From IMG/VR virus record IMGVR_UViG_3300036852_000109, positions 1 through 35,735 of that record: 35,735 nt of DNA. One strand, 5' to 3'. Position 1 is the stretch's first letter. Each line of letters starts with the position of its first letter. The notes below the pieces were generated by a model, which did no database searches, was not told the origin of the DNA, and was given only the letters and a program-made list of their open reading frames with translations. A program made the position numbers and the translations under genes. Shown here in pieces: positions 3,272 to 34,719 of this stretch. The stretch comes from a virus.

Positions 3272-4018
3272 TTGAGCACATTAGAAGACGCGCTTGCCCA
3301 CTTCGGCGTTCGAGGAATGAAGTGGGGCGTCCGTAAGTCCATGCCAGGTGGAACTTCGGAAAGGGCTCAGAAGCGGTTGCACAAAGCTCTCGCTTCCAAG
3401 TCCGTGCATCAGACGCGCGCGAAGACGATGCAGACGAAGTTGGACGACATCAACAAGCACGGCGAGAACTCCAAGACCTTCATCGAGAAGTTCGGCAAGC
3501 ACGGAGATCTGACCTTCCTCGCTCTCTACGGGAAGTCGAAAGCTGAAGCTCGCGATGAGATGCGTCGTGATCTGGAGATGGGTATCCGGGATTCAAACTT
3601 CCGGGCCGGCATCCACCAGAAGCGAATCGAGAAGGCCAAGGCGAAGCATTCCGACGAGGTCGACGAGTTCCTCAGCCATTTCGGCGTTCGAGGAATGAAG
3701 TGGGGCGTCCGGAAACAGGCGAAGCTCGATGCCCACCGGAAGCAGTCTTCGGAAGATGCTCGTCGCGCCGGTGACGCTTTCGTCAAGTCCCGCAAGATCG
3801 GCACACACGCGCTAACCAACAAGGAACTTCAAGATCTCGTCACTCGGATGAACCTCGAGCGGCAATTCGCCAGCCTCAAGCCACCATCGAAGAAGAAGCA
3901 AGCGGCAAAGCTCGTCGCAGACGTTCTTCTCAGCGCTGGGAAGCAGCAGGCGACCAAGTTGGCTTCGGATGCTCTTGCAAAGCAGGTTGCTGCAGCGATG
4001 GCACGAGGCGGTCGATAG
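3272..4018 (+). CDS. Unknown structural-module protein with two HFGVRGMKWGVRK motifs
   Basis: A 248-residue basic protein with TTG start and AAGGAGG 7 bases upstream. The 13-residue motif HFGVRGMKWGVRK occurs at residues 10-22 and again at 136-148. Similar HxGVxGMKWGV motifs recur in head-region proteins of many unrelated tailed phages, but I know of no established function. The rest is highly charged and helical. The C-terminal half has ALTNKELQDLVTRMNLE and a Lys/Ala-rich tail. It sits between the fibre and the large terminase. A scaffold-like, internal head or packaging-accessory role is possible from composition and position only. The protein looks like two motif-headed halves, perhaps from duplication or fusion. 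Confidence 0.6.
   Translation: MSTLEDALAHFGVRGMKWGVRKSMPGGTSERAQKRLHKALASKSVHQTRAKTMQTKLDDINKHGENSKTFIEKFGKHGDLTFLALYGKSKAEARDEMRRDLEMGIRDSNFRAGIHQKRIEKAKAKHSDEVDEFLSHFGVRGMKWGVRKQAKLDAHRKQSSEDARRAGDAFVKSRKIGTHALTNKELQDLVTRMNLERQFASLKPPSKKKQAAKLVADVLLSAGKQQATKLASDALAKQVAAAMARGGR
3302..3333 (+). repeat. 32-base perfect direct repeat, copy 1 (encodes the HFGVRGMKWGV motif)
   Basis: This 32-base stretch is identical at the DNA level to 3680-3711, although the surrounding sequences have diverged. It encodes most of the first HFGVRGMKWGVRK motif. Confidence 0.9.
3680..3711 (+). repeat. 32-base perfect direct repeat, copy 2
   Basis: This is the second copy of the 3302-3333 repeat, 378 bases (126 codons) downstream and in the same reading frame. 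Confidence 0.9.
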
Positions 4019-4033
4019 AAAGGAGGGTTGGTA

Positions 4034-5776
4034 GTGAGCTTATCGAATACGGCGACTCCGTATTACTACGGGTTGTTCCGTGACGCGGTTCTTCGCGGTG
4101 AGATTCCGGTCAATCGTGAAGTTGCAATGGAGATGAACCGCATCGATGCGCTAATTGCCAATCCAAACTTCTACTACGATGACCAAGCCGTCGAAGGTTG
4201 GATCAGGTACTGCGAAAACGAACTCACGCTGACTGACGGAAGCGACCTTGTTCTCCTGGACACGTTCAAACTCTGGGGCGAACAGGTCCACTGTTGGTAC
4301 TACTTCGAAACGTTGAGTGTCTATGAGCCATATCCGGACAATCGGGGCGGTAGGTTCGTCAACAAGACGATAAAGAAGCGGCTGACGACCAAGCAGTATC
4401 TAATCGTTGCTCGTGGCGGGGCTAAGTCGATGTACGCCTCTCTGATGCAGAACTACTTCCTCAACGTCGACACGACTACGACCCACCAGATCACGACCGC
4501 GCCGACCATGAAACAGGCCGACGAGGTTATGTCTCCCATACGTACCTCTATCACACGTAGTCGGGGCCCTCTCTTCAAGTTCCTTACGGAGGGGTCGCTC
4601 CAGAACACCACAGGCTCAAGGGCCAACCGGGTCAAGCTCTCCTCCACCAAGAAGGGTGTTGAGAACTTCCTCACTGGTTCCCTCCTTGAGATCCGTCCTA
4701 TGGCCATCGCCAAGCTCCAAGGGCTCCGTCCCAAAGTTTCAACTGTCGATGAGTGGTTGTCTGGAGATCTAAGAGAGGATGTTGTTGGAGCAATTGAACA
4801 AGGAGCTTCAAAGCTCGAAGATTGGTTGATCATCGCTATTAGTTCCGAGGGAACAGTTCGGAATGGTTCCGGTGATACAATCAAAATGGAACTCGCTGAC
4901 ATTCTTAAAGGCGAATACATAGCTCCGCACATCTCCATTTGGCATTACAAGCTGGACGAGCTCGAAGAAGTAGCCAATCCAGCCATGTGGCCGAAAGCTC
5001 AACCGAACATCGGCAAGACCGTTTCTTATGCCACATACCATTTGGATGTTGAGCGGGCCGAAAAGGCGCCTGCAGCTCGAAACGATATCCTAGCGAAGCG
5101 TTTCGGAATCCCGATGGAAGGCTACACGTACTTCTTCACCTATGAGGAGACGCTGCCACATAAGAAGCGACAATTCTGGAATCTTCCATGCTCACTTGGC
5201 GCCGACCTTTCACAAGGCGACGACTTCTGTGCATTCACTTTCCTTTTCCCGCTTCGTCAAGGTTTCGGGGTTAAGACTCGAAGCTACATCACGACTCTTA
5301 CACTCATGAAGTTGCCTTCGGCGATGCGTCAGAAGTACAACGAGTTTCTAGAAGAAGGAAGCCTTCACGTCCTCGAGGGATCGATCCTTGACATGATGGA
5401 GGTCTACGACGATCTAGATGCTCACATAAACGAGAAGAAGTACGACGTTCGAACCCTCGGATACGACCCTTACAACGCTAAGGAATTCGTTACGCGATGG
5501 GAGCAGGAGAACGGTTCCTACGGCATCGAGAAGGTCATCCAGGGCGCTAAGACCGAGTCGGTTCCTCTGGGAGAGTTGAAGATTCTCAGTGGTCAGCGGT
5601 TGCTCTTGTTCGACGAGGCTCTTATGACTTTCGCAATGGGCAACGCGATCACGCTTGAAGACACAAATGGGAACCGTAAACTCTTCAAGAAGAGGTACGA
5701 CGAGAAGATTGATAACGTGGCGGCCATGATGGACGCTTACGTCGCTTACAAGGCCAACAAGGAGGCTTTCGAATGA
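4034..5776 (+). CDS. terL: Terminase large subunit
   Basis: A 580-residue packaging motor. I chose GTG 4034 because GAAAGGAGG lies 8 bases upstream; the in-frame TTG at 4028 would be too close. The ATPase domain has a Walker A-like ARGGAKS at 126-132, then TAPTMKQADEVMSPI, and a Walker B ending VDE at 238-240. The nuclease domain shows acidic residues in GADLSQGDD (D391) and GYDPYNAKEF (D478), as expected of the RNase H-like nuclease. It would package DNA through the portal and cut concatemers, with the protein at 90-440 as likely partner. Its stop overlaps the next start (ATGA). The length is typical for phage large terminases. Confidence 0.95.
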   Translation: MSLSNTATPYYYGLFRDAVLRGEIPVNREVAMEMNRIDALIANPNFYYDDQAVEGWIRYCENELTLTDGSDLVLLDTFKLWGEQVHCWYYFETLSVYEPYPDNRGGRFVNKTIKKRLTTKQYLIVARGGAKSMYASLMQNYFLNVDTTTTHQITTAPTMKQADEVMSPIRTSITRSRGPLFKFLTEGSLQNTTGSRANRVKLSSTKKGVENFLTGSLLEIRPMAIAKLQGLRPKVSTVDEWLSGDLREDVVGAIEQGASKLEDWLIIAISSEGTVRNGSGDTIKMELADILKGEYIAPHISIWHYKLDELEEVANPAMWPKAQPNIGKTVSYATYHLDVERAEKAPAARNDILAKRFGIPMEGYTYFFTYEETLPHKKRQFWNLPCSLGADLSQGDDFCAFTFLFPLRQGFGVKTRSYITTLTLMKLPSAMRQKYNEFLEEGSLHVLEGSILDMMEVYDDLDAHINEKKYDVRTLGYDPYNAKEFVTRWEQENGSYGIEKVIQGAKTESVPLGELKILSGQRLLLFDEALMTFAMGNAITLEDTNGNRKLFKKRYDEKIDNVAAMMDAYVAYKANKEAFE

Positions 5777-6081
5777 ACTCGGCACCAGTTCCGGCTGTAA
5801 TCGCGAGCGATGTGGACTCCCTTCCCGCGAACCGGACCGCCCTTCGAGTCGCTCTCTTCACGGAAGAAGGCGTCGCGGTCACGGCTGTGCAAGAAGTTGT
5901 CGCCTGGGATGACGTCACGGGTAAGCCGTCGACATTCACCCCGTCCACGCACACGCACGTCGGCTCGGCGGTCACTCTGACCGGCTACACATCCGGCTCC
6001 GCCGGCAACGTCTCGGCAACCGACACCGTCAACCAGGCTCTCGCCAAGCTTGAGGCTCGAATCGCGGCACTCGAGGTTTAA
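5773..6081 (+). CDS. Small fibre-like / structural protein
   Basis: A 102-residue protein whose ATG overlaps the terminase stop. It contains WDDVTGKPSTFTPSTHTHVG, a pattern common in phage fibre and head-fibre proteins, followed by a Gly/Ser/Thr-rich stretch and a C-terminal heptad-like helix (NQALAKLEARIAALEV) that probably trimerises. Its position between terminase and portal suggests a head fibre or decoration protein. That is an inference, and no exact family is claimed. Confidence 0.55.
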   Translation: MNSAPVPAVIASDVDSLPANRTALRVALFTEEGVAVTAVQEVVAWDDVTGKPSTFTPSTHTHVGSAVTLTGYTSGSAGNVSATDTVNQALAKLEARIAALEV

Positions 6082-6128
6082 CTCAGGTAGGAGGCGTTTG
6101 ATGAGATATTTGAGAAGGGAGGTGTCGC

Positions 6129-7349
6129 GTGTTCCAAGGTCTCAAACGTAGATTGACCCATGCGTGGAATGCTTTCACGACGAACGATGACCCTAACGCC
6201 CGAATGCATGTCCATCAGGGCGCTAGCTATAGTGTCCGTCCAGATCGGACCCGTCTTCGTTTTTCGAGTGAGCGTTCAATCATCTCCTCGATCTACACAC
6301 GCCTCGCGATGGACGCCGCTGCATTCGATATTCTGCACGTTCGGCTAGACCCAGATGGACGGTACAAGGAAACCATCGACAGTGGTCTGAATACTTGCTT
6401 GACGCTTGAAGCTAACATAGATCAAGCGGCTCGACAATTCCGTCAGGACATTGTAATGACGTTCCTTGACAAGGCCGTCGCCGCAATCGTTCCTATCGAT
6501 ACCACAATTGATCCAACAAAGTCGTCGGGGTTTGACATTAAGACCCTTCGAGTTGGGGAAGTTTGTGGGTGGCATCCCAGACACGTTCGGGTCCGGGTTT
6601 ACAACGATCAACCTGACAAAGGGGTGCGCGAGGAGGTAACACTCGAGAAGAAGTTTGTTGCGATTGTTGAGAATCCACTGTCAGCAGTCATGAACGAACC
6701 GAACTCGACCCTCCAGAGACTCATTCGAACGCTCAACCACTTGGATGCGGTGGACGAACAATCGGCTTCCGGTCGTTTGGACTTGATCATCCAGCTTCCC
6801 TATGTTGTGAAGTCCGAAACGCGGCGAGAAGCAGCTACTCAACGTCTAACGGACATCGAATTCCAGCTCAAGGGAAGCAAGTATGGCATCGCATACGTCG
6901 ATGGCACGGAGAAGGTAATCCAGCTCAACCGACCCGCCGAGAACAACCTCCTCAAGCAGGTCGAGTATCTCACCAACCTTCTCTATACCCAACTTGGTCT
7001 CACCCCAGAGGTCATGAACGGCACAGCCAACGAGGCTGCGATGCTGAACTACTACAACCGGACCATTGAGCCACTCGTGGCGGCCATCGTAGAGGCTATG
7101 CGTCGTGCATTCCTTACCAAGACCGCCATAGCACAGAAGCAGTGGATACTAGCCTTCCGCGATCCATTCAAGCTTGTTCCGCTTAAGGACCTTGCCGAGA
7201 TCGCTGACAAGTTCCGTCGCGGTGAAATCGCAACGCCAAACGACTTCCGTCAAGCAATTGGTTGGAAACCGTTGAGTTCACCGAATGCCGACGATCCGAG
7301 GAATACCAACATGCCGGTTCCGTCGGAACCGATTCCAACCCAAACCTAA
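6129..7349 (+). CDS. Portal protein
   Basis: A 406-residue protein with GTG start after GAAGGGAGG. It begins MFQGLKRRLTHAWNAF, typical of this portal family, then RFSSERSIISSIYTRLAMDAA, a central domain with LTDIEFQLKGSKYGIAYVDG, and the stem-like region LGLTPEVMNGTANEAAMLNYY and TIEPLVAAIVEAMRRAF. Portals form the dodecameric vertex through which DNA enters. It is directly downstream of terminase and upstream of protease-capsid, the standard head order. A 16-codon open frame at 6101-6151 with a better Shine-Dalgarno (AGGAGG) overlaps the start out of frame and may couple translation. Confidence 0.9.
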   Translation: MFQGLKRRLTHAWNAFTTNDDPNARMHVHQGASYSVRPDRTRLRFSSERSIISSIYTRLAMDAAAFDILHVRLDPDGRYKETIDSGLNTCLTLEANIDQAARQFRQDIVMTFLDKAVAAIVPIDTTIDPTKSSGFDIKTLRVGEVCGWHPRHVRVRVYNDQPDKGVREEVTLEKKFVAIVENPLSAVMNEPNSTLQRLIRTLNHLDAVDEQSASGRLDLIIQLPYVVKSETRREAATQRLTDIEFQLKGSKYGIAYVDGTEKVIQLNRPAENNLLKQVEYLTNLLYTQLGLTPEVMNGTANEAAMLNYYNRTIEPLVAAIVEAMRRAFLTKTAIAQKQWILAFRDPFKLVPLKDLAEIADKFRRGEIATPNDFRQAIGWKPLSSPNADDPRNTNMPVPSEPIPTQT

Positions 7350-7370
7350 ATTGTAGGAGGGACAGTCAAA

Positions 7371-9362
7371 ATGGAACCTGATTTCTCAGGTTACGCCACC
7401 AAGGCTGGTCTCAAGTGCTCCGACGGACGAACCATCACGCCTGAAGCGTTCAAGCACATGGACGGCAAGCAGGTTCCGCTCGTTTGGCAGCATGACCACA
7501 CGGACCCCGAGAAGATTCTCGGTCACGTGATCCTTCGGCACGTTGCGGACGGCATGCGAAGCGATGCTTTCTTCAACGAGACAGCAGCCGGCAAGGCCGC
7601 CAAGGCCCTGGTGCTTCACGGAGACGTGAAGTTCCTCTCGATCTACGCGAATCAACTGGTCGAGAAGTCCAAGCAGGTTCTGCACGGAATGATCCGTGAG
7701 GTCAGCCTCGTTCTGGCCGGCGCGAACCCTGGCGCCGTCATCGACAACGTCCGTGTCGCTCACAGTGCTGACGACATCGAGGTTCTCGACGACGAGGCGA
7801 TCATCCACACGGGTCTCGAGATCGAACTTCCCGGAAAGACGGGCGAGGATGGGAAGCCCGACGACTCTGCAACGCATGCGGACGGCCCGACACTTCAGGA
7901 CGTCTACGACTCGCTCAACGACGACCAGAAGGAACTGGTCCACGTGATGGTTGCTGAGGCAATGTCAGCTCAGCAAGAAAGTGACGCCGCCGAGCACTCG
8001 GACGGAGAGAAGCCCGAGGGCGACCTCGAACACAAGGAAGGAACAACCGAAGTGAAGCGAAACGTCTTCGATCAGTCTGCTGCCGGCGGCACCGACACCA
8101 AGCCTGTCATTGCTCACGCAGACGTCGTTGCGATCTTCGAGAACGGCAAGAAACTGGGTTCCTTCAAGGAGGCTATCAACGCCTACTTCCAGGAGCACTC
8201 GGATCTTCTGCAGCACGGTGTGGACAACATCGACTTGCTGTTCCCGGACGCCAAGATGGTCATGGACGCCCCCGAATGGGACAAGCGCCGGACCGAGTGG
8301 GTCTCGACCGTCATCAACGGCACGCACAAGACCCCGTTCTCCCGCATCAAGACCATGGTGGCCAACCTGACGCTCGCGGCCGCGCGCGCGAAGGGTTACG
8401 TCAAGGGTGCGCTGAAGAAGGAAGAGTTCTTCGGCATCACCAAGCGGACCACCGGCCCGACCACCGTCTACAAGAAGCAGTCGCTGGACCGCGACGACAT
8501 CATCGACATCACCGACTTCGACATCGTCGCCTGGCTCTGGGGCGAGATCCGACTCATGCTCGAGGAGGAAGTTGCGCGTGCAATCCTCCTGGGTGACGGT
8601 CGCGACGTCGACGACGAGGACAAGATCGCGGATCCGAACGGCGCCTCTTCGGGCAACGGTATCCGGTCGATCCTCAACGACCACGATTACTACGCCCAGA
8701 CGTTGTACGTCAACCTCGGCGGGACGCCGGACTACCTGCTCTTCATCGACGAGGTCATCGCATCGCGTCGGTTCTACAAGGGCACCGGCCTGCCGACCAT
8801 GTTCACCACCGAGGTTCACATCGCGAAGATGCTGACCCTCCGGAGCGGCCTGACCGGAATGCGGATGTACCGCAACCTGGACGAGCTGGCCTCCGAGCTC
8901 CGCGTTTCGGCGATCGTCGCCGTGGAGCCGATGGAGGAGTACGAAGACGTGATCGCGATCCTCGTCAACCTGACCGACTACAACGTCGGCACCGACAAGG
9001 GCGGCGAGATCTCTCGCTTCGACGACTTCGACATCGACTACAACAAGTTCAAGTACCTCATGGAGACCCGTCTGTCGGGTGCCCTGACCAAGGTGAAGTC
9101 GGCGCTCATCTACCGCTCGGTTGCGAGCACGGACGTTCTCGTGGTTCCGAACGAGCCCACGTTCGTTTCGAGCACCGGTGTCGTGACGATCGTGGCCACC
9201 ACCGGCGTCGTGTACAAGAACAAGGACACGGGCGCGACCCTGTCCACTGGTGCTCAGTCGGCCCTTGCGTCCGGCGCCAGCATCACCGTCGTGGCAACTC
9301 CGGCCTCGGGTTACTACCTGGCCGACAACATCAACGACGAGTGGACCTTCACTCGCGACTAA
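7371..9362 (+). CDS. Fused prohead protease - major capsid protein with C-terminal Ig-like domain
   Basis: A 663-residue fusion with TAGGAGGG before ATG 7371. Residues 1-135 form an HK97-type prohead protease, with a candidate catalytic His in WQHDH (41-43) and Ser112 in IREVSLVLAGANPGA. Residues about 136-227 are an acidic linker. Residues about 228-585 form an HK97-fold capsid protein, including a likely scaffolding (delta) segment. Residues about 587-663 form an Ig-like domain resembling the tail of the tube protein at 9999. The protease would cut itself and the delta segment during head maturation. An internal GTG at 8052 with its own Shine-Dalgarno could give unfused capsid. The capsid part is richer in GC-ending codons than its neighbours, fitting high expression. 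Confidence 0.92.
   Translation: MEPDFSGYATKAGLKCSDGRTITPEAFKHMDGKQVPLVWQHDHTDPEKILGHVILRHVADGMRSDAFFNETAAGKAAKALVLHGDVKFLSIYANQLVEKSKQVLHGMIREVSLVLAGANPGAVIDNVRVAHSADDIEVLDDEAIIHTGLEIELPGKTGEDGKPDDSATHADGPTLQDVYDSLNDDQKELVHVMVAEAMSAQQESDAAEHSDGEKPEGDLEHKEGTTEVKRNVFDQSAAGGTDTKPVIAHADVVAIFENGKKLGSFKEAINAYFQEHSDLLQHGVDNIDLLFPDAKMVMDAPEWDKRRTEWVSTVINGTHKTPFSRIKTMVANLTLAAARAKGYVKGALKKEEFFGITKRTTGPTTVYKKQSLDRDDIIDITDFDIVAWLWGEIRLMLEEEVARAILLGDGRDVDDEDKIADPNGASSGNGIRSILNDHDYYAQTLYVNLGGTPDYLLFIDEVIASRRFYKGTGLPTMFTTEVHIAKMLTLRSGLTGMRMYRNLDELASELRVSAIVAVEPMEEYEDVIAILVNLTDYNVGTDKGGEISRFDDFDIDYNKFKYLMETRLSGALTKVKSALIYRSVASTDVLVVPNEPTFVSSTGVVTIVATTGVVYKNKDTGATLSTGAQSALASGASITVVATPASGYYLADNINDEWTFTRD
8034..8054 (+). 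promoter_or_regulatory. Candidate internal translation start for unfused capsid protein
   Basis: AAGGAAGGA (8034-8042) lies 9 bases before an in-frame GTG at 8052, which encodes VKRNVFDQ. This is the kind of N-terminus seen on stand-alone capsid proteins of related phages. Translation from here would yield a 436-residue capsid precursor without the protease. Confidence 0.45.
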
Positions 9363-25256: not shown

Positions 25257-25832
25257 ATGCTCAAGAAAACCATCACGTTCAAAGACCTCGACGGGAATCC
25301 GGTCACTCAGGACTTCTATTTCAACCTGAATGACGCAGAGCTCGCCGAGATGCATCTGTCCATGCCTGGTGGAATGGAAGGCTACCTCCGCAAGATCATG
25401 GCGGAGGAGGACGCCGCAGCGATCATCTCCACGTTCAAGGAGATCCTGTGGAAGGCGATCGGCCGTAAGGACGCGGATGGAATCCGGTTCGTCAAGTCGG
25501 ATGAAATCTGGTTCGAGTTCTCTCAGACCGATGCCTACAGTGTTCTGTTCATGGAGCTCCTCACCAACGCCAAGGCTGCGGCCGAGTTCATCAAGGGAAT
25601 CGTCCCGGCCAACCTGGCGGCACGTATTCCAGATTCGGGCACGCTCGAGCTGTCCGAAACCCGACTGAGCGGCGCCATCTTCGGTGAAACTCAAAAACGG
25701 AAGAAACTGGAGGACTACACGGACGAAGAGCTGGTCGCCATGCCGGGACCAGAGCTCGCGGACCTCATCCAGCGCGAGAGTGGGAATGTCCCCAAGAAGA
25801 TCCTTCTCCTCGCGATGAGCAAGATCAAATAA
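25257..25832 (+). CDS. Tail-assembly-chaperone-like protein outside the tail module
   Basis: A 191-residue soluble protein with GGAAGGC before ATG 25257. It begins MLKKTITFKDLDGNPVTQDF and has YFNLNDAELAEM, FKEILWKAIGRK, FEFSQTDAYSVLFMELLTN and IVPANL. This pattern recurs in phages and has been called tail assembly chaperone or structural-like; its function is not firmly established. Its place among membrane-protein genes, 14 kb from the tail genes, is unexpected for a chaperone. A structured non-coding segment follows it. It could equally have another role in this block. Confidence 0.5.
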   Translation: MLKKTITFKDLDGNPVTQDFYFNLNDAELAEMHLSMPGGMEGYLRKIMAEEDAAAIISTFKEILWKAIGRKDADGIRFVKSDEIWFEFSQTDAYSVLFMELLTNAKAAAEFIKGIVPANLAARIPDSGTLELSETRLSGAIFGETQKRKKLEDYTDEELVAMPGPELADLIQRESGNVPKKILLLAMSKIK

Positions 25833-26971: not shown

Positions 26972-27121
26972 ATGGGCCACCCGAATGTACGTGAGGCTCT
27001 GAAGAGCCTATATCCCAAGTCGAAAAAGTGGCTCGCCAAGGTCGATGGGATGACCGATTCTCAGGTAGTTGCCGTCTATTTTCGACTCTTCCAGCAAAAG
27101 AAATTCAAGGAGAAATCGTGA
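26972..27121 (+). CDS. 49-residue conserved small protein
   Basis: This short gene runs from ATG 26972 to TGA 27119-27121. It encodes MGHPNVREALKSLYPKSKKW then LAKVDGMTDSQVVAVYFRLF and a basic end. The 'NVREALKxLYPxxKKW ... MTDxQVxAxYxRL' pattern recurs as a tiny protein in many actinophage and Firmicutes phage genomes next to DUF6353-like genes; its function is unknown. Its last 4 bases overlap the GTG start of the next gene, and the codons are uniformly sensible. The start site has only a weak Shine-Dalgarno. Confidence 0.65.
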   Translation: MGHPNVREALKSLYPKSKKWLAKVDGMTDSQVVAVYFRLFQQKKFKEKS

Positions 27122-28014
27122 AACTCGCAGCCCTTAGGAATTTCGTCACCAGCAAAGCTGGGAGGCAGATTCTCAAAGTTCAAAAGCACTCGCCCGTTCT
27201 TCTCTTCGGAGCCGGCGTTGTGGGTGTTGTGGCAACCGTCGTTCTCGCAAGCCGCGCGACCCTGAAGCTCGAAGAAATCCTGGAAGACCACCAGGACGAT
27301 CTGGACAAGGTCAACTTCGCCCTCGAGGTCCACGGCGAGAAGTACAGCCAGGATGACGCCAAGAAGGACTTGGTGAAGATCTACGCCAAGACTAGCCTCC
27401 GGATCATCAAGATGTATTCGCCGGCAGTGGCTGTGGGCGTTGTCTCGATCGCCGCGTTGACGGGATCGCACGTCATCCTCACTCGAAGGAATCTGGCCCT
27501 GACCGCAGCGTACGCGGCCCTGGACAAGGGGTTCCGGGAGTATCGCGAGCGGGTCGTGAAGGCCCTCGGGAAGGATCAGGACGATCAGTTCCGATACGGT
27601 TGCGACGACGTCGAGATCGTCGAGGAGACCAAGAACGGTCCGGTCATGAAGACCGTCAAGCGGGCCGGCAAGGAGCCGTCGATCTATGCTCGGTGGTTCG
27701 ATGAGAGCTGCCCGGACTGGAACTCGGAGACGTCCTACAACCTGCTCTTCCTCAAGTGCCAGATGCAACATGCCAATGACAAGCTTCGGGCTCGTGGTCA
27801 TCTCTTCCTGAATGAGGTCTACGAGTCGTTGGGCATCAAGCACTCGCGTGAGGGAGCCGTCGTCGGCTGGGTTCTCGGTGGTGAGGGAGATGACTTCGTC
27901 GATTTCGGAATCTTCGATCCCAACAAGCCGGGATATCGCGACTTCATCAACGGCTGGAACAAGACCGTCCTTCTCGACTTCAACGTCGACGGCATCATCT
28001 ACGACAAGATCTGA
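27118..28014 (+). CDS. DUF6353-like membrane protein, copy 2
   Basis: A 298-residue protein. GTG 27118 is preferred because AAGGAG lies 5 bases upstream and the N-terminus then matches the paralogue at 24171; longer upstream extension would run through the preceding small gene. Segments: VQKHSPVLLFGAGVVGVVAT and SRATLKLEEIL, a second membrane span (about residues 101-122, MYSPAVAVGVVSIAALTGSH), ALTAAYAALDKGFREYRERV, then a soluble domain with PSIYARWFDESCPDW and GAVVGWVLGGEGDD. Compared with copy 1 the C-terminal domain is longer and diverged. The function is unknown. Confidence 0.7.
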   Translation: MKLAALRNFVTSKAGRQILKVQKHSPVLLFGAGVVGVVATVVLASRATLKLEEILEDHQDDLDKVNFALEVHGEKYSQDDAKKDLVKIYAKTSLRIIKMYSPAVAVGVVSIAALTGSHVILTRRNLALTAAYAALDKGFREYRERVVKALGKDQDDQFRYGCDDVEIVEETKNGPVMKTVKRAGKEPSIYARWFDESCPDWNSETSYNLLFLKCQMQHANDKLRARGHLFLNEVYESLGIKHSREGAVVGWVLGGEGDDFVDFGIFDPNKPGYRDFINGWNKTVLLDFNVDGIIYDKI

Positions 28015-28713: not shown

Positions 28714-29241
28714 ATGGAAGCGCCGATTGACGAGTTATATTTCACATGGCTCTACGGCGTGGTTGCTGACCCTCGCATCAAAAGAACTTACCGTACATAT
28801 TGGCGGCTATTCAAGCTCCTCTACACTAAGGAGTTCGTTTGGATCGTCCCTAACGATGACAACCGAATTGAAGACGGAAAAGAACTGCGATACGAGTTCA
28901 TCGACCACCAAAAACTCATGGACGTAGATCACGGGTGGATGAATCTGGGTTGCTCCATGCTAGAGCTCTTAATCGGCCTTTCGCGAAGGCTTGCTTTCGA
29001 AACAGATAGTGAGCCTCGCGTTTGGTTTTGGCGGATGCTCGAAAACCTGGATCTCGAGAAGTTCAACGATGGAGCCCATTTCACGAATGAGATGGTTCAG
29101 GAGAAACTAGACGCCGTTATTTGGCGGACATACAAACACAATGGCGACGGTGGACTGTTCCCCCTAAGTCAACCTTGCAAAGACCAACGCGATGTGGAGC
29201 TCTGGTACCAGATGAGCGCCTATATCCTTGAATCCGCCTAG
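28714..29241 (+). CDS. Conserved phage protein of unknown function
   Basis: A 175-residue soluble acidic protein with TAGGAGTAAG before ATG 28714. It has ELYFTWLYGVV, YWRLFKLLYTKEFVWIVPND, DNRIEDGKELRYEF, LGCSMLELLIGLSRRLAFET, and IWRTYKHNGDGGLFPL followed by DVELWYQMSAY. This pattern is widely distributed among siphoviruses of Actinobacteria and Firmicutes without an assigned role. It joins the membrane-protein block to the replication fusion gene 16 bases downstream and is probably co-transcribed with both. Confidence 0.7.
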   Translation: MEAPIDELYFTWLYGVVADPRIKRTYRTYWRLFKLLYTKEFVWIVPNDDNRIEDGKELRYEFIDHQKLMDVDHGWMNLGCSMLELLIGLSRRLAFETDSEPRVWFWRMLENLDLEKFNDGAHFTNEMVQEKLDAVIWRTYKHNGDGGLFPLSQPCKDQRDVELWYQMSAYILESA

Positions 29242-29257: not shown

Positions 29258-32200
29258 ATGGATTTCTTTCAAGTCGCTACAAGAGAAACCAAGAACGGTC
29301 TCGAGATATTTCCCGATTTCACAGTCGGGAGGTCTAAGGACTTGATGGTGCGTGGACGCGCGTTCTACGCCATCTGGGACGAAGAGAGGCAGTTGTGGTC
29401 TACGGACGAGTACGACGTTCAACGTCTTGTTGACCAAGCGCTCTTGGAATACGCCGCGAAAGCAAAGGAAACTGGCGGCACATGTAGCGTCAAAACCCTC
29501 AGTTCTTTTGGAAGCAATGGATGGACCCAATTCCGAAAGTTCGTAGGCAACATAAGCGACAATCATCACCAACTCGATGAATCGCTGACGTTCGCAAACA
29601 GCCAAGTCAAGAAAGGCGACTACGTTAGCCGACGACTTCCCTATGCCCTCGCCCCCGGTTCCTACAAGGCGTGGGATGAGTTGATCGGCACTCTATATAA
29701 TCCAGAGGAGAGGACGAAGATCGAATGGGCGATCGGATCTGTAATCTCTGGAGACTCGAAGAAGATCCAAAAATTCCTCGTTCTATACGGGCCTGGTGGT
29801 ACAGGAAAGTCAACGATCCTCAATGTGATCGGGAAACTCTTCGAGGGCTATACGACTACCTTCGAGGCCAAAGCACTTGTCGGGAACAATAACGCGTTCG
29901 CGACCGAATCGTTTCGTGGTAACCCCTTGGTCGCTATCCAGCACGACGGCGACTTGTCGAAGATCGAGGACAATAGCAAGCTGAACTCGATCATATCCCA
30001 CGAAGCAATGACTATGAACGAAAAGTACAAATCGACCTATACGGACAAGATCAATGCTTTCTTGTTCATGGGTACAAACAAGCCAGTGCGAATCAGTGAC
30101 GCCAAGTCGGGAATTATCCGACGACTGATTGACGCGCACCCAACTGGTACTTTGTTTCAGCCTGCGCATTACCACACTTTGATGGCTCAGATCGATTTTG
30201 AGCTCGGGGCCATCGCGCAACACTGCCTTGACGTATATCGGGAGAAGGGTAAGAACTACTACAACGGATATCGGCCGGTACAAATGATGCTCCAGACCGA
30301 CATCTTCTTCAACTACGTCGAGGCATATTTCGACATCTTCAAATCGCAGGACGGATGCACGCTGAAACAAGCGTACGCGCTATACAAGGAGTTTTGCAGT
30401 GAAACCGGGATCGAGTTCGTCCTCCCGCAATACAAGTTCCGAGAGGAGCTTAAGAACTATTTCCACGAGTTCCATGACCGATTTGTTCTGGATGGGCAGA
30501 CTGTTCGAAGTTACTACAAAGGTTTCACCGCCCAGCCCTTCAAAGCGCCAGCCAATACCAACGGTCACGCTTACTCATTGGTACTGGATGAGACTACATC
30601 GCTCTTGGACCTTGAGTATGCGGAGCAGCCGGCGCAGATGGCGAAAGATGATGGGACGCCTCAGAAACGTTGGTCCGACGTCAAAACTACGCTTGCGGAG
30701 ATTGACACTTCGGAAGTTCACTTCGTAAAGGTTCCACAAAACCATATCGTCATCGACTTCGACCTAGTAGGAGAAGATGGAAAGAAGTCTCTTGAGCGCA
30801 ACCTGGAGGCTGCTTCTCAGTGGCCTGCGACCTACGCAGAGCTTTCCAAATCAGGTTCTGCGGTCCATCTCCATTATATCTTTGATGGTGATACCTCCGA
30901 GCTCGCACGAAAGTACGATGAGGGCATTGAGGTCAAGGTGTTCGCAGGAGACTCTTCCTTGCGGAGGCGGCTGTCCAAATGCAACAACGTGCCTATTTCC
31001 ACGATAAGTAGTGGACTTCCCTTCAAGGAGAGAAAGATGCTCCAGAGCGACACTATCAAATCCGAGAAGGGTCTTCGTGATCTCATTGGCAGAAACTTGC
31101 GCAAGGAGATTCATCCGGGAACGAAACCCTCCATCGATTTCATCGCCAAGATTCTCGACGAAGCATATTTGTCGGGGATGAAGTACGACGTCAGTGATCT
31201 TTACCCCAAGCTGATGGCGTTCGCAAACAACAGTTCCAACCAACCGCTCGTGTGCTTGAAGGTTGTGCAGAAGATGCGCTTCAAGTCCGACGACCCGATC
31301 AACACGCCGGAACCAGAGCCGAAGGACGACCGACTCTCCTTCTATGACGTTGAGGTATATCCCAACCTCTTCGTCGTGTGCTGGAAGTTCCAAGGTTCCC
31401 CCACCACAGTTCGAATGATCAATCCCTCCCCGCAAGAAGTTGAGGCTCTATTCAAGCTGAGGCTTGTTGGCTTCAACAACCGTAGGTACGACAACCATAT
31501 CCTCTACGCGCGGTTCATGGGGTATGACAATGAGCAGCTCTACCGGCTCTCTCAGAAGATCATCGAGGGAAGTGTCGGGTCGATGTTCGGCGAGGCTTAT
31601 AACCTCTCGTACGCCGACATCTACGACTTCAGTTCGGTCAAGCAAGGGTTGAAGAAGTTTCAAATCGATCTGGGTCTTCCTCACGTCGAGCTCGATCTTC
31701 CCTGGGACCAGCTAGTCAAAGATGAGGATATTCCTCGGGTGGTTGAGTACTGCGTCAACGATGTGGAGTCCAGCGAACTCGTGTTCGAGGCTCGGAAGCA
31801 GGACTTCATTGCAAGGCAGATCTTGGCTGAAATTAGCGGCCTGAGTGTCAACGACACCACACAGAAACATACCGCCAGGATCGTCTTCGGTGAAGACAAG
31901 AACCCACAACGAGCATTCGTCTACACCCATCTATCCCAAGAATTCCCCGGCTACATATTCGATCGGGGCCAGAGCACATACAGAGGGGAGGTGACCGGTG
32001 AAGGCGGTTATGTCTACGCTGAACCAGGGATGTACGAGAACGTGGCGCTTCTTGACGTTGCTTCTATGCATCCGACGAGTATCATACAGCTCAACCTATT
32101 CGGGGAGTACACAAGCAACTTCCAAGCTCTCCTCGATACGCGTCTGGCGATTAAGGCTAAGGACTACGAGTCCGCAAGAACTCTTCTTGGAGGCAAGCTC

Positions 32201-33043
32201 GCCAAGTATCTGGGTGATGATGCGGGCGCTAAGGGTCTTAGCGATGCACTTAAGATCGTCATCAATATCGTGTACGGCCTCACTTCCGCGAAATTCGACA
32301 ACCCGTTCAGGGATGTCCGTAACGTCGACAATATCGTGGCTAAACGAGGCGCGCTCTTCATGGTCGATCTCAAGCACGCGGTCCAAGAGCAGGGCTTTAC
32401 GGTTGCGCACATCAAGACGGACTCGATCAAGATACCGGACGCGACGCCCGAGATCATAGAGTTCGTCAAGACCTTTGGCGCTAAGTACGGCTACACGTTC
32501 GAGTACAAACCGGACGAGGACTTCTACGACGCCATGACGTTGGTGAACGATGCCGTCTATATCGCAAGGCGGACGGTTCCGGCCAAGCTGGAGGGTAACA
32601 ACGACAAAGCTTGGACAACTAAGTGGACAGCGGTCGGCGCGCAATTCCAGCACCCATTCGTGTTCAAGACTCTCTTCACTGGAGAGCCAATCGAGTTCGA
32701 CGACTTGTGTGAAACGAAGCAGGTTACACAAGGCGCCATGTATCTCGACTTCGAACACGACCGCCCCATGGCCCTTGCGGAGGGGATGCAATTCGTCGGA
32801 CGCACTGGGCGATTTGTCCCAGTAAAAGAAGGACGAGGAGGTGGCGTTCTATATCGCGTCAAGGACGGTAAGTCATACGCGGTAGCCGGCACGAAGGGAT
32901 ATTTGTGGTTGGAGGCCAGCGTCGCTAAAGGACTGCAGGGTCTCTCCACAGATGCAATCGACATGCGCTATTTCGTTAACCTTGCGGAGGAAGCGCGAAA
33001 GACCATCGACTACTTCGGAGAGTTCACTAGATTCGTGAGGTGA
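29258..33043 (+). CDS. SF3 helicase - primase-like - family B DNA polymerase fusion
   Basis: A 1261-residue replication protein with GGGGGGAGG before ATG 29258. Residues about 20-150 are D5_N-like. The SF3 helicase has Walker A GPGGTGKS (178-185), an acidic QHDGD motif (D230) and a MGTNKP sensor (N274). Residues about 450-600 resemble an AEP primase: DFD at 500-502 and SGSAVHLHY at 532-540. Residues about 690-840 form the proofreading exonuclease: DVE (697-699), NRRYD (D745) and YCVND (831-835). The polymerase motifs are DVASMHP (D933), K999 with NIVYG, and KTDS (D1055). The order helicase-primase-polymerase in one chain is unusual. It could unwind, prime and copy the phage genome. Confidence 0.9.
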   Translation: MDFFQVATRETKNGLEIFPDFTVGRSKDLMVRGRAFYAIWDEERQLWSTDEYDVQRLVDQALLEYAAKAKETGGTCSVKTLSSFGSNGWTQFRKFVGNISDNHHQLDESLTFANSQVKKGDYVSRRLPYALAPGSYKAWDELIGTLYNPEERTKIEWAIGSVISGDSKKIQKFLVLYGPGGTGKSTILNVIGKLFEGYTTTFEAKALVGNNNAFATESFRGNPLVAIQHDGDLSKIEDNSKLNSIISHEAMTMNEKYKSTYTDKINAFLFMGTNKPVRISDAKSGIIRRLIDAHPTGTLFQPAHYHTLMAQIDFELGAIAQHCLDVYREKGKNYYNGYRPVQMMLQTDIFFNYVEAYFDIFKSQDGCTLKQAYALYKEFCSETGIEFVLPQYKFREELKNYFHEFHDRFVLDGQTVRSYYKGFTAQPFKAPANTNGHAYSLVLDETTSLLDLEYAEQPAQMAKDDGTPQKRWSDVKTTLAEIDTSEVHFVKVPQNHIVIDFDLVGEDGKKSLERNLEAASQWPATYAELSKSGSAVHLHYIFDGDTSELARKYDEGIEVKVFAGDSSLRRRLSKCNNVPISTISSGLPFKERKMLQSDTIKSEKGLRDLIGRNLRKEIHPGTKPSIDFIAKILDEAYLSGMKYDVSDLYPKLMAFANNSSNQPLVCLKVVQKMRFKSDDPINTPEPEPKDDRLSFYDVEVYPNLFVVCWKFQGSPTTVRMINPSPQEVEALFKLRLVGFNNRRYDNHILYARFMGYDNEQLYRLSQKIIEGSVGSMFGEAYNLSYADIYDFSSVKQGLKKFQIDLGLPHVELDLPWDQLVKDEDIPRVVEYCVNDVESSELVFEARKQDFIARQILAEISGLSVNDTTQKHTARIVFGEDKNPQRAFVYTHLSQEFPGYIFDRGQSTYRGEVTGEGGYVYAEPGMYENVALLDVASMHPTSIIQLNLFGEYTSNFQALLDTRLAIKAKDYESARTLLGGKLAKYLGDDAGAKGLSDALKIVINIVYGLTSAKFDNPFRDVRNVDNIVAKRGALFMVDLKHAVQEQGFTVAHIKTDSIKIPDATPEIIEFVKTFGAKYGYTFEYKPDEDFYDAMTLVNDAVYIARRTVPAKLEGNNDKAWTTKWTAVGAQFQHPFVFKTLFTGEPIEFDDLCETKQVTQGAMYLDFEHDRPMALAEGMQFVGRTGRFVPVKEGRGGGVLYRVKDGKSYAVAGTKGYLWLEASVAKGLQGLSTDAIDMRYFVNLAEEARKTIDYFGEFTRFVR

Positions 33044-34230: not shown

Positions 34231-34719
34231 ATGACAAGAATCGACGGTAGCGTCACGATCATGGACGCGAAGATCGTCAACAGGAACTTCGCCGGCAAGG
34301 CGGACACCTACAATCCCGAGGGGCGCCGGAACTTCGGCGTTCTCTTGGATGAGACCACGGCTCGTGAGATGCTCAGGGACGGCTGGAACGTCAAGTACTT
34401 CAAGGTCCGTGAAGAGGGCGATGAGGCCCAGGCCTTCATTCAGGTTGGCGTCTCGTTCAAGATTCGTCCGCCGAGGGTCGTTATGATCACTTCGAAGGGT
34501 CGTACCGATCTGGACGAAGATGCGATCGGCATGCTCGACTACGCGGACATCAAGAGCGTCGACCTGATCTTCACTCCCTACGAATGGGAGGTCGGAGAGA
34601 AGACCGGCATAAAGGCATACCTCAAGTCCTTGTACGTCACCATCGAAGAGGACGAATTGGAGTTGAAATACCGCGACCTCGACGAAATCCCCACTCGTTC
34701 CGGAAGGGTGAGTGAGTAG
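34231..34719 (+). CDS. Probable single-stranded DNA-binding protein
   Basis: A 162-residue protein with GGAAAGTGAG before ATG 34231. It has SVTIMDAKIVNRNFAGKADT, RRNFGVLLDETTAREMLRDG, WNVKYFKVREEGDE, IQVGVSFKIRPPRVVMITSK, VDLIFTPYEWEVGEKTGIKA and LKSLYVTIEEDEL. This strand-rich pattern fits phage ssDNA-binding proteins of the OB-fold type that lie near replication genes. Such a protein would coat single strands made by the fused helicase. It is close in position to the replication fusion and is the only SSB candidate in the window. The exact family is not certain. Confidence 0.6.
   Translation: MTRIDGSVTIMDAKIVNRNFAGKADTYNPEGRRNFGVLLDETTAREMLRDGWNVKYFKVREEGDEAQAFIQVGVSFKIRPPRVVMITSKGRTDLDEDAIGMLDYADIKSVDLIFTPYEWEVGEKTGIKAYLKSLYVTIEEDELELKYRDLDEIPTRSGRVSE

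Follow-up and report, generated by a model that had tools for sequence, protein, structure and literature searches.

Among family B DNA polymerases (PolBs), the HelPrimPolB group, in which an N-terminal SF3 helicase and a PrimPol are fused to PolB, was placed in the EpsilonN-like clade by Kazlauskas and colleagues (2020), who defined it by this domain organisation and described its divergent motif C and KxY (PMC7544198). Purified GP55 of Lactococcus phage 1706 polymerises DNA, degrades it as a 3'-5' exonuclease, unwinds it in a UTP/dTTP-dependent manner and acts as an RNA primase, as shown by Zhang and colleagues (PMC12205980). GP55 forms a dimer via its helicase domain and copies ssM13 de novo, and its priming requires a four-helix domain, aHD (PMC12205980).

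The window analysed here, i.e., the whole 35,735-base IMG/VR record of an uncultivated virus, contains one locus matching a replicase protein of this type. Its gene starts with ATG and runs through 1261 codons with no internal stops, in agreement with a first-pass annotation made from the sequence alone (Table 1). The predicted chain is ordered SF3 helicase, archaeo-eukaryotic-type (AEP, PriS-like) primase, exonuclease and family B polymerase; the domain identities and the order proposed in that annotation are right. A PHROGs search matched residues 1 to 1260 to phrog_4210, 'DNA polymerase' (2030 bits, E value reported as 0), and such a match over the full length excludes chance for the domain reading. 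PHROGs also returned separate, weaker matches, to phage primases/helicases for the helicase part and to phage polymerases for the C-terminal part. Residues 1 to 1255 of the replicase aligned with residues 1 to 1298 of GP55, from Lactococcus phage 1706, with 37.4% identity (E value of 0). The replicase very probably belongs to the known HelPrimPolB (GP55-like) group and comes from an uncultivated tailed phage, whose host is probably an actinobacterium, to judge solely from the nearest cultured relatives. The novelty implied by the first-pass annotation does not hold, as both the group (PMC7544198) and the activities of GP55 (PMC12205980) were published before; the window adds new sequence to a known family.

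Table 1. Features of the replicase locus, with window positions and protein residues (aa).
Feature	Position	Strand	Residues or motifs	Basis
Conserved gene, function unassigned, directly upstream of the replicase	28714..29241	+		phrog_4678, 1.8e-69
Very probable HelPrimPolB replicase	29258..33043	+	1261 aa	ATG start, open frame, full-length PHROG match
Putative SF3 helicase region	29702..30571	+	~aa 149-438	Pfam DUF5906, Pox_D5; conservation with GP55
Helicase Walker A			GPGGTGKST, aa 178-186	K184 invariant in 74 non-redundant homologues
Helicase Walker B-like			PLVAIQHDGDL, aa 223-233, with D230
Helicase sensor			FLFMGTNKP, aa 268-276, with N274
Helicase Arg-finger region			GIIRRLID, aa 285-292, with R288/R289
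Predicted AEP (PriS-like) primase core	30596..31033	+	aa 447-592	AlphaFold model, Foldseek, VIA-align
AEP motifs			IDFD (D500, D502); GSAVHLH (H537, H539); GIEVK (E558)
Four-helix domain equivalent to GP55 aHD	31064..31273	+	aa 603-672	Predicted helices; Y643, F655
Predicted 3'-5' exonuclease subdomain	31322..31768	+	aa 689-837	Motifs, model matches, conservation
Exo motifs			ExoI FYDVEV (D697, E699); ExoII FNNRRYD (D745); ExoIII YCVND (D835)
Predicted PolB polymerase subdomain	31769..33040	+	aa 838-1261	Motifs, model matches, conservation
Pol motifs			A, LLDVASMHPTS (D933); B, KIVINIVYG; C, HIKTDSIKIP (K1053, D1055)
Putative phage ssDNA-binding / single-strand annealing protein	34231..34719	+		Pfam PF24083, 1.2e-61; phrog_4787, 1.6e-59

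A tblastn search of phage records returned 423 that match the replicase, 252 of them covering at least 80% of it, with identities of up to 64%. Among the matches listed, those over the full length came from Gordonia, Rhodococcus, Arthrobacter, Streptomyces, Microbacterium, Bifidobacterium and Lactococcus phages, and Enterococcus, 9g-like, crAss-like and Acinetobacter phages matched the exonuclease-polymerase part only. A scan of viral contigs identified 301 stretches encoding relatives, up to 76% identical, of which 80 were kept for comparison. The replicase is one full-length frame in 82 of the 85 sequences compared, the window itself included. If helicase-primase and polymerase were normally separate, the fusion might be put down to misassembly or a frame error, and one relative, Bifidobacterium phage BitterVaud1, does have its replicase in two coding sequences separated by an unrelated ORF. 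However, the single frame in nearly all sequences compared and the same fusion in hundreds of phage genomes leave this explanation with a negligible probability, and we rejected it on the evidence of relatives: because these encode the full-length replicase in one frame, the fusion is genuine. The first-pass annotation had named two outcomes that would speak against its reading, the lack of an AEP fold (see below) and a gene split in relatives, with the fusion an assembly error; neither turned out to hold.

The three sequences without a single full-length frame are BitterVaud1 (L003) and the contigs L024 and L011. In L024, the start of the match is lost at the contig end. In L011 (positions 5177 to 8974), the tblastn match reaches residue 1259 in one frame, but the longest stretch without a stop codon goes no further than about residue 899; this replicase frame is probably interrupted. 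In BitterVaud1 (L003 positions 4001 to 8631), the first coding sequence extends through the exonuclease part as far as residue 921, the second resumes with motif A from residue 924, and the intervening ORF of 213 residues matches no Pfam family. It is possible that this split gene represents a natural two-subunit HelPrimPolB.

The Walker, AEP-type and PolB motifs lie where the first-pass annotation had placed them, and the 74 non-redundant homologues all share the key residues of these motifs. In the N-terminal part, Pfam identified DUF5906, an SF3-type family (E value of 7e-15, residues 176 to 289), and a weak match to Pox_D5 (residues 369 to 405). Sequence comparison showed conservation of the SF3 hallmarks, K184, the Walker B-like region of D230, N274 and R288/R289. 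With Walker A and B, sensor 1 and the arginine finger all legible, this part appears to be an SF3 helicase.

The assignment of the next part rests on motifs, PHROGs and predicted structure, because the sequence-based searches of Pfam and of PDB sequences gave no match: Pfam detected no AEP family in the region of residues 440 to 690, and a profile search against PDB sequences yielded nothing beyond an irrelevant match (E value of 0.7). PHROGs gave a match to phrog_3022 (E value of 0.001). The AEP signatures hhhDhD, sxH and hE/hD are all present, and their residues, D500/D502, H537/H539 and E558, are invariant in the 74 homologues. An AlphaFold2 model of residues 440 to 690, built from 76 aligned sequences, had a mean pLDDT of 91. 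Each of the ten highest-ranking Foldseek matches of this model was to a PrimPol, either from phage NrS-1 or from plasmid pRN1 (E value of 9.5e-6 to NrS-1 PrimPol), and VIA-align superposed it on the NrS-1 structure 7rr3 with a Z score of 9.8 and an rmsd of 3.4 Å over 140 residues, spanning residues 447 to 592 of the protein. The model thus supports an AEP fold of the PriS-like primase type for these residues. The InversePrim AEP family, defined by PriCT-1 ahead of the primase together with a RepA helicase (PMC5862659), was considered and rejected, as neither hallmark was seen in the replicase.

The region that the first-pass annotation had proposed as AEP, residues 450 to 620, resolves into the predicted core, at about residues 447 to 592, and a separate domain after it. 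Four helices follow the core at positions 164 to 175, 183 to 199, 207 to 218 and 224 to 233 of the model of residues 440 to 690. The predicted helices, their position and the mapping of Y643 and F655 support the equivalence of this domain to the GP55 aHD; VIA matches to other helical proteins, with Z scores of 5.1 and below, were uninformative. The Pfam result would fit a primase-dead replicase dependent on another primase, yet every residue of the AEP motifs is conserved, as are those that GP55 requires in its aHD, and the predicted fold matches that of active PrimPols, which makes such a loss extremely improbable.

The C-terminal part gave a sub-threshold Pfam match and nothing stronger. The AlphaFold model of residues 685 to 1261 had a mean pLDDT of 91 and resembled family B polymerases of archaea, bacteria and eukaryotes (best Z score of 16.4, 459 residues, rmsd of 7.5 Å), supporting a predicted PolB fold for residues 689 to 1258. 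Modelling and domain comparison, a check suggested for the full chain in the first-pass annotation, matched these two modelled parts to the AEP and PolB folds. In the 74 homologues, D697/E699, D745 and D835 of the exonuclease, D933 of motif A and N1003/Y1006/G1007 of motif B are invariant. ExoI to ExoIII, motifs A, B and C and the PolB fold of a family B DNA polymerase were all found, the first Asp of motif C being a Lys as in GP55.

Motif C reads KTDS in place of DTDS, as had been noticed at first pass: the second Asp is kept (D1055) and the first is replaced (K1053). That observation had cast doubt on activity. A polymerase half that is inactive or specialised, e.g., for lesion bypass, would have a precedent in archaeal B2 PolBs with a single Asp in motif C, which had been regarded as inactivated and whose activity is weak and of the translesion type (PMC7544198). 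However, GP55 with the identical KTDS rapidly copies 7-kb ssM13 (PMC12205980), and every Exo and Pol catalytic residue checked is invariant in homologues; we regard an impaired polymerase as very improbable. Because K1053-T1054-D1055-S1056 is invariant in the 74 homologues and carried by active GP55, the doubt falls away and, by analogy, KTDS is a family hallmark compatible with activity and no sign of inactivation. That 74 diverse members, including one with demonstrated biochemical activity, all keep it shows a single-Asp motif C to be stable in working polymerases of the group.

All mapped GP55 residues whose mutation is reported to cause loss of activity are identical in the replicase: K189 corresponds to K184 (helicase), D509 to D502 (primase), Y655 and F667 to Y643 and F655 (aHD), D712/E714 to D697/E699 (exonuclease), and D949 to D933 (polymerase). 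We infer that the replicase itself has the four activities, each demonstrated for GP55. By homology, the SF3 helicase would unwind duplex DNA and drive strand displacement, the AEP core and the following four-helix domain would make short RNA primers on the exposed single strand, and PolB would extend them while its exonuclease proofreads. Motif C would operate with one Asp, D1055, and the invariant K1053 in place of the first.

The first-pass annotation had suggested a near-complete replisome in one chain, with a probable SSB gene downstream. The latter prediction was supported, as the downstream gene encodes a protein of a conserved phage family (PF24083, putative phage ssDNA-binding domain; phrog_4787, single-strand annealing protein). 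A single-strand annealing protein is likewise annotated downstream of the replicase in phage 1706, a likeness of the GP55 locus to the window, and in ReqiPoco6. The replisome proposal is only partly right because relatives encode a separate helicase-like gene: GP55 can by itself synthesise DNA de novo from an ssDNA template, yet helicase-like and ssDNA-binding/annealing proteins are also encoded by relatives. The helicase-like gene is annotated further downstream in 1706 and RosaAsantewaa, and four contigs (L010, L015, L002 and L004) have weak, mostly sub-threshold Pfam helicase matches downstream of the replicase; the window ends before this position. The replicase chain may thus not be the sole helicase of these phages. 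Contigs L004 and L005 resemble the window in having genes of similar size directly upstream of the replicase.

Farther upstream, the window encodes two copies, about 2 kb apart, of a DUF6353 membrane-type protein (PF19880; 24171 to 24956, E value of 4.5e-83, and 27028 to 28014, 6.4e-71). Between them lies a match to a family of tail assembly chaperones (PF23803, E value of 5.2e-47; 25257 to 25832), about 6 kb past the tape measure gene, an unusual site for a chaperone.

Compared with GP55 (NC_010576, orf55; PMC12205980), the replicase shares the four-part order, full-length homology, catalytic residues, KTDS and the aHD after the primase. In contrast, GP55 is longer (1317 residues), its Walker A (GAKGTGKGT) and sensor region (LLITASNER) differ, and so does the sequence of its KxY region. 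Because of the Walker A and sensor differences, the UTP/dTTP preference of GP55 need not apply to the replicase. With the KxY region also different, the replicase may depart from GP55 both in the nucleotides that it prefers and in where it primes; the priming site of GP55 is 5'-CCAAC-3'. A different helicase fuel in the actinophage branch was considered because its Walker A is more canonical than that of GP55; that this branch uses another fuel (e.g., ATP) and another priming site, with a defined catalytic role for the motif C Lys, is a tentative and rather unlikely proposal. NrS-1 PrimPol has the AEP core fold in common with the predicted model, but there a single AEP centre both primes and synthesises, a helix bundle domain is present and PolB is absent (PMC12205980). 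The actinophage 'DNA primase/polymerase' proteins of phrog_4210, from Gordonia, Rhodococcus (ReqiPoco6/Pepy6), Arthrobacter, Streptomyces and Microbacterium phages, are collinear with the replicase over the whole length (52 to 64% identity among the matches listed), have a similar gene context and differ by sequence divergence only, although their product names omit the helicase part. In organisation and divergent motif C, the replicase is like the HelPrimPolB group (PMC7544198), with no difference found. It represents a well-conserved environmental addition to the self-contained phage replicases, whose best-studied enzyme primes itself and copies ssDNA de novo.
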